A stretch of 47,507 nt of DNA from positions 1 to 47,507 of the forward strand of contig LVBB01000084.1 in assembly GCA_001603075.1 (NCBI GenBank), read 5' to 3'. Numbering within the stretch: the first letter of the stretch is position 1; each line of letters opens with the position of its first letter. Both the position numbers and the translations under genes were made by a program. This DNA comes from Phycisphaerales bacterium Planc_01 (GTDB lineage: Bacteria > Planctomycetota > Phycisphaerae > Sedimentisphaerales > Anaerobacaceae). Below the pieces are notes generated by a model, which was not told the origin of the DNA, ran no database searches, and saw only the letters and a program-made list of their open reading frames with translations. Positions 4,892 through 40,456 of this stretch are shown one piece after another.

Positions 4892-5863
4892 ATGAGCTCG
4901 AAAACGCGACTGGCGCAGGCGTACTACGATTTGTCGGTCATGATGGACGCGGGCGTGCCGATCCTGCGCTCGTTGGATATCACGATCGAGGGACGCCAGG
5001 GGTACATCAAGCAGGTCCTCAAGCGGATTCGCGAGACCATCTCGAAAGGGTCGAGCCTGGCCGAGGCCCTCGACCAGCATCGCAACGTGTTTCCCCAGTT
5101 GGACCGAATGCTCATCGAGGCGGCCGAGACATCGGGAGCGCTCGGCCTGTCGTTCAAAATGCTCTCCGAGTGGCACGAGTTCGTCCACCGCATCACCCGG
5201 CAGCTCCAGATGGGCCTGATCTACCCTGTGTTGATTCTGCACATGGGCGCGTTCATTGCGGCCGTTCCGACTGCCGTTATGGGCGGATTCACGCCGTGGG
5301 GGTTCGCCATGAGCGTGCTACACCCCCTCCTGTATCTCTACATCCCCGCAGCCGTCGTCATCGTGTTTGTGCTTCTGAGAGATCGCAGTGCCCTGCTGCG
5401 CTGGCCGCTGGATTTCTTCGTACTGCGGATTCCCGTCCTCGGCCAGGCCGTCTACCACATGTCCGTCTGCCGGTACGCCAAGGCGTTCGCGATGATGTAC
5501 GCGGCGGGCGTCCCTATCACCGAGGTAACCGAACGCGCCACGCGCGCCACCGGCAACGAGATCATCGCCCGCCTGTTCGCCGGAGGCAAAGAAAGCGTCC
5601 GTGCCGGTGGGCTCGCCTGGGAGGGCTACTCCAAGCGGCTGCCGCCGCAGTATCTGCACCTGTTTCAGATCGGAGAGGAGACGGGCGAACTGGACAAGAC
5701 GGCCGAGAAGATCGCCGAGATCTCCGGCGACCGGGCCGATCTGCTCTTCACCGAATTCGCCAAATGGCTGCCCAAGATCGTCTACTTCGCTATCATGATC
5801 TACTTGGCAGCGAAGGTCATCGCGCTATGGCAGCAGGTCTACGGCAGCGCGCTGTCCTTCTGA
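4892..5863 (+). CDS. Type II secretion / type IV pilus assembly inner-membrane protein, GspF/PilC family
   Basis: Two T2SF-type units are visible: one from about residue 7 (LSVMMDAGVPILRSL ... GSSLAEALD ... LIEAAETSG) and one in the second half (YAKAFAMMYAAGVPITEV ... HLFQIGEETGELD). Each is followed by hydrophobic segments (LIYPVLILHMGAFIAAVP; a C-terminal helix ending KVIALWQQVYG). GspF proteins sit at the base of the secretion or pilus platform and couple to the ATPase. At 323 residues it is shorter than the usual 400 or so, lacking the N-terminal cytoplasmic extension. No GspE ATPase or pilin lies next to it; a prepilin peptidase is encoded at 22678-23859. Start chosen at the ATG at 4892 because homology begins directly after it. 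Confidence 0.88.
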   Translation: MSSKTRLAQAYYDLSVMMDAGVPILRSLDITIEGRQGYIKQVLKRIRETISKGSSLAEALDQHRNVFPQLDRMLIEAAETSGALGLSFKMLSEWHEFVHRITRQLQMGLIYPVLILHMGAFIAAVPTAVMGGFTPWGFAMSVLHPLLYLYIPAAVVIVFVLLRDRSALLRWPLDFFVLRIPVLGQAVYHMSVCRYAKAFAMMYAAGVPITEVTERATRATGNEIIARLFAGGKESVRAGGLAWEGYSKRLPPQYLHLFQIGEETGELDKTAEKIAEISGDRADLLFTEFAKWLPKIVYFAIMIYLAAKVIALWQQVYGSALSF

Positions 5864-39292: not shown

Positions 39293-39308
39293 CTGTCTTC
39301 TATCGGTT

Positions 39309-39382
39309 GGGGCCGTAGCTCAATTGGTTAGAGCATCGGACTGTCGATCCGAAGGTTGAGGGTTCGAGCCCCTTCGGCCTCG
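39309..39382 (+). tRNA. tRNA-Asp (anticodon GTC)
   Basis: The 74-base cloverleaf folds fully: acceptor 39309-39315 with 39375-39381, D-stem GCTC/GAGC, anticodon stem TCGGA/TCCGA around CTGTCGA with anticodon GTC at 39343-39345, and T-stem GAGGG/CCCTT around TTCGAGC. The discriminator base is G, as expected for tRNA-Asp. CCA is not encoded. Confidence 0.97.
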
Positions 39383-39386
39383 ATCC

Positions 39387-39425: not shown

Positions 39426-39652
39426 TGCGCCAGATAGCTCCCAATCACGTTTGCCGTGCCCGGAGCCCCCGTGCAGCCCCCTGCCCGAGCCGTCGGAGAT
39501 GCCGCGCCTGCGGTTTCCACCTGCATGAGCTGATCTCGGACTTCGCATCTGTGTCATACGCTTGCTGCCCAACGACCGAATGGCCACGTCATACCACCGG
39601 CGGCAGTTGGGAATAGGCAATCGTATGGTATGTTTTGATGGGGGACTGTACG

Positions 39653-39763
39653 ATGATCAGTCGCACGGAACTGATGATTATGCTCGCGATCCTCGCCGTG
39701 GGGACAGCGATCATCCTGCTGATGCTGGCGTCCGGCTGCATCAGCAGTGCGCCGGCACCGTAG
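39653..39763 (+). CDS. Tiny putative lipopeptide (36 residues)
   Basis: The frame from ATG at 39653 to TAG at 39763 encodes 36 residues: MISRTELMIMLAILAVGTAI then ILLMLASGCISSAPAP. A single hydrophobic helix ends in a lipobox-like LASGC, followed by only eight residues, similar in layout to entericidin-like lipopeptides. GGGGGA lies 8-13 bases before the start, and a -10-like TATGTT (39629-39634) with TTGGGA (39607-39612) lies upstream. Too short for certainty, but the lipobox and its place before two small genes with similar upstream regions support it. Confidence 0.45.
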   Translation: MISRTELMIMLAILAVGTAIILLMLASGCISSAPAP

Positions 39764-39829
39764 TCCGTGCACCGCACCAATTCACGGCCCCCTCGCACCG
39801 CTCCGGCTCGCTCATCCGCTGCCCTTGGT

Positions 39830-39858
39830 TTGGCCGTTGGCAGACGATTTCGTATGGT
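39830..39858 (+). promoter_or_regulatory. Promoter of the first tandem small gene
   Basis: TTGGCC (39830-39835) and TATGGT (39853-39858) are 17 bases apart, 16 bases upstream of the ATG at 39875. The same -10 (TATGGTTT) and the GCCCTTG block recur before the second copy. Confidence 0.45.
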
Positions 39859-39874
39859 TTGCCTGGAGGTGGTT

Positions 39875-40084
39875 ATGAAGATCTTCTGGCTGCACCGTAA
39901 CGGCAATCTCTACGCGCTGAAGCACGACACGTTCGGCCACATCGTCGGCGTCGCCGGCCCGCTGGACTGGGACAACCTGCACGATGCCGACGATCCGGAG
40001 TACCACAGCGAACTGGTCCTCTGGGCCGAGGGCGAAATTGAGCGGCGCGCCATGCAGCGCATGCGTGCGACCCTCATCTGTTAG
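39875..40084 (+). CDS. Small protein of an unrecognised family, tandem copy 1
   Basis: The 69-residue protein begins MKIFWLHRNGNLYALKHDTF and continues GHIVGVAGPLDWDNL. It aligns with the product at 40229-40456; by eye 24 of the first 55 aligned residues are identical, including FW-H-NG-YA, D-FG-I-G-AGP-D-D-L. GGAGG lies seven bases before the ATG. The C-terminal part is helical and charged (SELVLWAEGEIERRAMQRMR). I do not recognise the family. No signal peptide. The pattern of short strands at the N-terminus and a helix at the C-terminus suggests a small alpha/beta domain. Confidence 0.75.
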   Translation: MKIFWLHRNGNLYALKHDTFGHIVGVAGPLDWDNLHDADDPEYHSELVLWAEGEIERRAMQRMRATLIC

Positions 40085-40184
40085 CCCCACCGAGCCTCCC
40101 GCCCGATCCGCTCTCGATCCCGATGCTGTCCACGCGGGCGCACCCGCCCGTTTCATGGGACACGCGGCCGCCCTCCGCAGGCCC

Positions 40185-40213
40185 TTGCCCGAACGCCGTT
40201 CGTTTTCTATGGT
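40185..40213 (+). promoter_or_regulatory. Promoter of the second tandem small gene
   Basis: TTGCCC (40185-40190) and TATGGT (40208-40213) are 17 bases apart, 15 bases upstream of the ATG at 40229. The arrangement closely mirrors the one before copy 1, so promoter and gene seem to have been duplicated together. Confidence 0.45.
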
Positions 40214-40228
40214 TTATCGGGGTGTCCT

Positions 40229-40456
40229 ATGAAAGACTTCTGGCAACACGACAACGGCAAGGTTTACGCGGTGCGAAGCGACAGTTTCGGCAGGATCACT
40301 GGCGCGGCCGGGCCGTTTGACCCCGATGACCTGGGCAGCCTGGAAGAGTTCCACTACGGGCCCGCCATCGTCGATTGGGTCAAGAAGGCCATCGCCGAAC
40401 ACAAGTGTCACCGGATCAGCGTCGCGCCGATCAAGCGCGCCATATCGCAGCTCTGA
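40229..40456 (+). CDS. Small protein of the same unrecognised family, tandem copy 2
   Basis: The 75-residue protein begins MKDFWQHDNGKVYAVRSDSF and continues GRITGAAGPFDPDDLG, then a helix (GPAIVDWVKKAIAEHK) and a basic end (APIKRAISQL). It is a paralog of the product at 39875-40084. No Shine-Dalgarno as good as that of copy 1 (GGGGTGTCCT). A transposase remnant follows within about 20 bases, which marks the edge of a rearranged stretch. Function unknown. Confidence 0.75.
   Translation: MKDFWQHDNGKVYAVRSDSFGRITGAAGPFDPDDLGSLEEFHYGPAIVDWVKKAIAEHKCHRISVAPIKRAISQL

Follow-up and report, generated by a model that had tools for sequence, protein, structure and literature searches.

Three short genes within the window, that is, the whole 47,507-nt stretch of planctomycete DNA analysed here, are preceded by elements of a shared form, TTG-N19-21-TATRNTTTR, which very probably, to judge from the nucleotide patterns, represent a promoter class distinct from the common promoter of this genome. 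Two of these genes, A and B, encode members of FWQH, an undescribed family of small proteins for which the searched libraries contain no known relative, and the gene that precedes them encodes a membrane micropeptide. The genome itself is a 5.65-Mb draft assembly of 162 contigs. The features of the locus are listed in Table 1.

Table 1. The three small genes and their promoter-class elements, in window coordinates.
Feature	Positions	Strand	Description	Basis
Micropeptide	39653-39763	+	36 aa (MISRTELMIMLAILAVGTAIILLMLASGCISSAPAP); lipobox LASGC, apparently lineage-specific; predicted single-helix membrane peptide	ORF, alignment
FWQH copy A	39875-40084	+	69 aa, start MKIFWLHRNGNLYALKHDTFGHIVGVAGPLDWDNL	ORF, profile, tree
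FWQH copy B	40229-40456	+	75 aa, start MKDFWQHDNGKVYAVRSDSFGRITGAAGPFDPDDL	ORF, profile, tree
Micropeptide promoter-class element	39607-39637	+	TTG-N19-TATGTTTTG	pattern match
Gene A promoter-class element	39830-39861	+	TTGGCC-N17-TATGGTTTG	pattern match
Gene B promoter-class element	40185-40216	+	TTGCCC-N17-TATGGTTTA	pattern match

The original prediction, made from the sequence of this DNA, described A and B as two adjacent related genes of an unrecognised small protein family, with correct coordinates and motifs. Because B matches A in this genome with an E-value of 8.9e-11 and 40% identity, their likeness is not due to chance. The family does appear to have escaped the libraries: A, B and the micropeptide each match no Pfam family, 20 FWQH members match no NCBIfam family and reach only chance-level scores in Pfam and PHROGs (best E 0.15), and no match beyond chance was found among the PDB sequences. 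A limited literature library yielded no paper on either the FWQH family or the promoter class. Homologs do exist in planctomycete genomes, where the original prediction had proposed a profile search. With B and A as single queries, matches were found in 17 and 16 of 61 genomes, respectively, this genome included; a profile built from 20 members extends the family to 33 of the 89 genomes of the window's taxonomic family (one match weak) and to 46 of the 161 genomes of the order (several matches weak). In the phylum sample, where 15 candidates per genome were scored, at least 4 of 392 genomes match, two of them strongly, namely this genome and another member of its order, and two at a borderline E of 0.004. 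The 29 named FWQH loci, which came from scanning a large set of genomes once for two short peptide patterns, are all titled Phycisphaerae, Phycisphaerales, Sedimentisphaerales or Planctomycetota. Across 30 aligned members, W5, H7, Y13, A14, G21, G25, G28, P29, Y43 and W50 are invariant, and A and B lack a signal sequence.

It is almost certain that FWQH is a real family evolving under purifying selection, on which the original prediction had made its case depend. By the Nei-Gojobori count, dN of 0.09-0.31 compares with dS of 0.35-1.29 for A, and dN of 0.04-0.16 with dS of 0.33-0.73 for B (genomes G000, G001, G002 and G005; dS is saturated in two distant B pairs). For the micropeptide, the respective values are 0.12-0.27 and 0.54-1.22, with dN below dS in 6 of 6 pairs, and the same inequality holds in all A, B and micropeptide pairs with a defined dS. 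In the phylogenetic tree, the A proteins, which come from three genomes of this genus and a single genome of a second one, form a clade (support 100/99), the joining of which to B is weakly supported (48/80); G002 has kept the micropeptide and B, and A was not found there. The duplication had been explained by selection for either dose or two variants, of which the second fits better: judging from the separate A clade in two genera and the 38-40% identity between A and B, the two proteins appear to be old diverged variants, with no recent increase in dose.

The surroundings of FWQH genes are variable. Among ORFs of at least 90 aa in the 29 named loci and the window, no neighbour gene is common to more than 6 of the 30 FWQH loci. 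The most widespread ORF cluster is the FWQH ORF itself (7 loci), followed by clusters at 6 loci, in scattered positions, and, downstream of FWQH, at 5 loci (L043, L044, L054, L058 and L059); these five encode related proteins, probably secreted, on the FWQH strand at a distance of 0.4-3.1 kb. PilX-like genes, recognised by eye, lie close to FWQH at L051, L062 and L067; the one at L051, a place also designated L317, is itself preceded by the rare promoter. Rubrerythrin/ferritin-like genes, also identified by eye, are located directly upstream of FWQH in three genomes (L046, L047 and L048), and the FWQH genes at these loci are without the promoter element. Finally, a 304-aa open frame (L106, contig C373 of genome G097, 637-1548) contains three near-identical repeats (EYGRVTSEFAPSCDYRELVD.TEAE.DQIISDL) and ends with an FWQH-like domain (E 2.4e-9); this natural fusion could name a partner.

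The 36-residue lipobox peptide reported upstream of A and B is encoded in the window as predicted and has a related promoter. The same peptide is found upstream of FWQH genes in G002, G005 and G029, the linked copies being conserved in the stretch that runs from MISRTE up to the Cys and diverging beyond it. The conserved pairing that had been proposed for checking thus holds in four genomes of two genera; beyond these four, the micropeptide and FWQH are encoded on different contigs, and in G001 the contig includes only 50 nt upstream of A, too little to show whether the two are linked. Relatives of the micropeptide, found with the single peptide and then with an 11-member alignment, define a family of 27-36 aa in which members of 27-30 aa, for example MKKSELIMGLAILAAGTAIIVLILFYS, are without a lipobox. 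A lipobox (LASGC or LAAGC) is present in the window peptide and three relatives and absent in the other 7 of the 11 aligned members. Because the conserved part consists of the charged N-terminus and the membrane helix, we regard this as a family of single-helix membrane micropeptides. Accordingly, the name "lipopeptide" used in the original prediction suits the window peptide and a subset of its relatives but not the family, and the lipobox Cys looks like an addition of this lineage. The family was detected in 13 of the 161 genomes of the order (one match weak), including three (G018, G028 and G099) in which no FWQH is detected at E 0.01. As the model spans only 28 positions, the true numbers are probably higher.

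Several other genes lie near the micropeptide. PilX-like genes, assigned by eye, are close to it at L123 and L132, and in G002 a STAS-like ORF, likewise by eye, ends about 330 nt upstream. In the window, a tRNA-Asp gene (gtc; 39308-39383) lies about 270 nt upstream of the micropeptide; at L062, a tRNA-Pro gene (5700-5773) lies about 215 nt upstream of FWQH. A scan of 18 sources found tRNA genes, besides the window, in L057 and L062 only, the close one being that of L062.

Turning to the promoters, the units ascribed by the original prediction to A and B individually are present at nearly equal distances from the ATG. In A, TTGGCC (39830-39835) is separated by 17 nt from TATGGTTTG (39853-39861), with TAT 22 nt before the ATG, and the element can also be read as TTTG-N20-TATGGTTTG from 39829. 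In B, TTGCCC (40185-40190) is followed after 17 nt by TATGGTTTA (40208-40216), with TAT 21 nt before the ATG, and in the micropeptide gene, where the TTG is at 39607, TATGTTTTG starts 24 nt before the ATG. Counted from the TTG, the spacing is 20 nt to TATGGTTTG in A, 20 nt to TATGGTTTA in B and 19 nt to TATGTTTTG in the micropeptide gene. No fourth match to TTG-N18-22-TATNNTTTR exists on either strand of the 47.5-kb window beyond the three genes.

The element recurs throughout both families. TATRNTTT lies within 120 nt upstream of the gene in 19 of 28 FWQH loci, compared with 0.52 hits expected on the basis of the remaining sequence of these loci, and is preceded at 18-22 nt by TTG in 15 of the 28, versus 0.1 expected; 7 of the 28 have no element within 220 nt (L065 was excluded from this count, its frame from the match start stopping after five residues). 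For the micropeptide, the element is found within 120 nt upstream in 13 of 15 loci, against a summed background of about 0.46, and in 9 of the 11 loci that are unlinked to FWQH. The original prediction viewed the likeness of the promoters as a result of tandem duplication of promoter plus gene. Such duplication is insufficient: because the element also occurs before FWQH genes present in one copy, micropeptide genes at unlinked sites, and pilus genes, the likeness does not come from tandem duplication alone.

The contrast with the common promoter was drawn from 449 upstream regions in 1.10 Mb of this genome (genes of at least 150 aa, reach up to 200 nt; many targets have longer leaders). There, the common form TTG-N19-22-TATNNT occurs 55 times in sense versus 17 times in antisense orientation, and only 3 of the 55 sense sites carry the trailing TT; TATRNTTT alone, with 2 sense and 4 antisense sites, is rare in these regions and shows no strand bias. 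Spacings of 19, 20 and 21 nt between TTG and TATRNTTT give 3, 3 and 2 matches in the 1.10 Mb, three of these eight in the window; among the other spacings from 8 to 39 nt, there are 3 matches at 13, 2 at 25 and no more than 1 at any other. The pattern TTTGN{18,21}TATNNTTTR is found 13 times in this genome versus 3 times for the reversed pattern, and 110 versus 27 times in eight relatives. TAnnTTTG taken alone is not enriched (11 versus 22.6 in shuffles, 310 kb of this genome).

What else lies behind such elements was assessed by reading the ORFs behind 72 non-FWQH sites in eight genomes, 12 in this genome and 60 of the 110 in relatives; the 60 were picked by eye for clear elements, some of the ORFs chosen are not the true first gene, and matches that overlap or adjoin coding sequence (such as L165 and L169) are retained in the counts. 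Among the best 25 of 45 Pfam families listed, PilM_2 is the most frequent (7), followed by N_methyl prepilin (5), STAS (4: G000, G005 and twice in G022) and rhomboid (3), with T2SSE accompanied by MshEN, PilZ and PilX_N at 2 each. More than two sites were read in seven of the genomes; PilM has the element in all seven of these, and prepilin has it in five. The controls were 49 common promoters of this genome, again judged by the best 25 of 75 Pfam families listed; two of them precede pilus-type genes, one T2SSE and one prepilin-like protein found by motif, BLAST with the motif-set proteins found no PilM-like protein among the 49, and the control protein L196 is the same as the motif-set member L161. 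Among the families listed, pilus-type genes thus make up 18/72 behind the rare promoter versus 2/49 in the controls (p=0.002). The difference is not significant when counted by homologous group (5/41 versus 2/49, p=0.24), and for this genome alone the comparison is 2/12 versus 2/49 (p=0.17); a post hoc comparison of groups at three or more sites (3/7 versus 2/49, p=0.011) carries no weight in our conclusion. The presence of pilus genes in the promoter class is well supported at the level of the promoter sequence, because it is conserved across genomes; the counts fall short of showing that pili are the main theme of the class. What FWQH, micropeptide, PilM and prepilin genes have in common is the element itself.

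Two further groups of proteins recur behind the rare promoter. One, of 502-524 aa, is found in six genomes (L274, L276, L290, L292, L299 and L321), and the one member scanned matches no Pfam family. The other is a membrane protein of 57-61 aa from four genomes (L167, L272, L284 and L286), alike by eye, which perhaps represents a third tiny family of the same promoter class.

The original prediction also proposed modelling each FWQH protein alone, and AlphaFold, run on A and B separately with family alignments, gives confident models (pLDDT 88.4 and pTM 0.75 for B; 86.7 and 0.72 for A). The predicted fold is beta-beta-beta-alpha-beta, with antiparallel-type strands at 2-7, 12-17 and 23-30, a helix (48-56 in B, 45-56 in A) and a short fourth strand, with an additional predicted helix at 32-39 in A. 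Foldseek yields a best E of about 1 in the PDB and of 0.11 among viral models, the VIA structure comparison a best Z of 3.3, so that a known fold is still possible, and no structure match in either search points to a partner or an activity.

Taken together, our best reading, offered tentatively, is that a type IV pilus/surface regulon includes FWQH and the micropeptide as small accessory proteins under common control. The locus would then comprise three separately promoted small genes belonging to one regulon, which in relatives would extend, through the rare element, to type IV pilus/type II secretion-like genes (PilM, prepilin, PilX, PilB-type ATPase and PilZ) and to genes for STAS-domain proteins. 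The parts of this reading differ in strength. Co-regulation of the three small genes is suggested by their shared element, and a regulon that includes pilus genes is likely; that FWQH itself serves a pilus or surface machine is more doubtful, and a role as an adaptor is a speculation to which we give little credence. The pilus role of FWQH and the micropeptide is one that we infer. A dedicated sigma factor or regulator might read the promoter during pilus building or use, or upon a change of surface state; the micropeptide would insert in the inner membrane as a single helix, and the FWQH proteins would work from the cytosol, tuning a pilus- or secretion-like machine as small adaptors or binding subunits. 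The absence of a signal sequence, the predicted compact three-stranded sheet with a helix, and the invariant W5, H7, Y13, G25, G28-P29, Y43 and W50 are the traits we would cite for such a role, in which A and B would be diverged variants for different partners or conditions.

The main rival holds that the promoter serves a general stress or life-cycle regulon controlled by STAS-type partner switching, in which pilus genes would be one branch of many and FWQH and the micropeptide would be stress or stationary-phase proteins. We consider this rather unlikely. It draws on the STAS genes that carry the element, on the STAS-like ORF upstream of the micropeptide in G002 and on the 54 of 72 downstream proteins that are not pilus-type among the Pfam families listed (rhomboid, glycosidases, a symporter, unknowns), but the most widely shared targets of known function are PilM and prepilin, and STAS proteins occur in motility and surface control too.

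It is improbable that FWQH is a small nucleic-acid-binding (auto)regulator of the conserved promoter element or of transcripts. The small beta-rich fold, the conserved aromatic and basic residues and a faint resemblance, short of significance, to nucleic-acid-binding proteins, Lsm/Sm among them, would suit such a function; set against these are the poor structural matches (E about 1 or Z of at most 3.3), the many acidic residues of A and B, the occurrence of the element before genes far from any FWQH gene, and its fit to a sigma-type -35/-10 arrangement. The latter layout, being compatible with sigma-70, together with the lack of strand bias of TATRNTTT upstream of larger genes, would also accord with FWQH being an ordinary housekeeping small protein with a strong ordinary promoter, AT-richness being all that the promoters have in common. 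The scarcity of the trailing TT among common-promoter sites, the patchy distribution of FWQH and the finding of the element upstream of both small families across many genomes make this quite improbable. Least probable of all is a cargo of mobile-element or toxin-antitoxin type, in which the membrane peptide would serve as toxin beside a pair of small proteins. The small sizes, scattered contexts, patchy presence (33/89), membrane micropeptide and nearby tRNA genes of the window and L062 might evoke such a cargo, which we reject both as a toxin-antitoxin module, in view of three promoter elements, one per gene, instead of one operon and of micropeptide and FWQH genes unlinked on different contigs elsewhere, and as a mobile or phage element, given that two scans (the B protein and the profile) found no relative in viral contigs, that PHROGs matches are at chance level only, that one remote-subfamily protein as query matched nothing in plasmid or phage records, and that the examined stretches of other linked loci (L043, L025/L122 and L114/L053) contain no tRNA.

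If the pilus/surface reading is true, a readable promoter class ties two unknown tiny-protein families to pilus genes in more than one genus of planctomycetes that are for the most part uncultured, hypothetical proteins become named candidates for pilus or secretion control, and a sequence tag becomes available for tracking down the remaining regulon members and the corresponding sigma factor. The promoter class is a useful discovery, and the pilus link is the first testable hint of the function of FWQH and the micropeptide.

Comparison with other systems begins with a remote subfamily of FWQH itself, MKxLYRHKSGDIFAIETDxxGxVxxTSGPL (L109, L110, L111 and L113), found in 3 of 294 phylum genomes. 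It has the N-terminal half in common with FWQH (hhalign probability 96%, E 4e-9, 44 columns) but differs in its C-terminal half, which is well conserved. Among known structures, 3bid (NMB1088), with a DUF1508/YegP-like domain, is similarly small and beta-rich (VIA Z 2.9, rmsd 2.2 over 42 residues). FWQH, unlike DUF1508, has no Pfam match, and its identification with DUF1508 (PF07411) was rejected on an hhalign probability of 0.7% (E 0.079, 21 columns; the DUF1508 profile comprised five stretches only, from the same bacterial family). The window micropeptide resembles tiny bacterial lipoproteins such as the entericidins in being a small ORF with a lipobox; in its family, the membrane helix and not the part after the Cys is conserved, and most of the aligned relatives (7/11) lack the lipobox.

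The promoter element invites comparison with that of the Bacteroides sigma-A(Bfr), which consists of a -33 TTTG and a -7 TAnnTTTG (PMC7366714). Gene A, in its TTTG-N20-TATGGTTTG form, fits this arrangement, B departs from it in having CTTG and ending in TTTA, and the micropeptide gene has GTTG and TATGTTTTG; family-wide, the TTTG-like box plus TATRNTTTR resembles the same layout (PMC7366714). Unlike the Bacteroides promoter so described, the planctomycete element is rare beside the common TTG-N-TATNNT, and its last base is often A. It is conceivable, if hardly likely, that a Bacteroidetes-like dedicated sigma factor drives an undescribed planctomycete surface/pilus regulon in which an FWQH switch and the micropeptide tune pilus assembly or secretion; the FWQH fold would then act as a cytosolic switch, doubled here into two variants.
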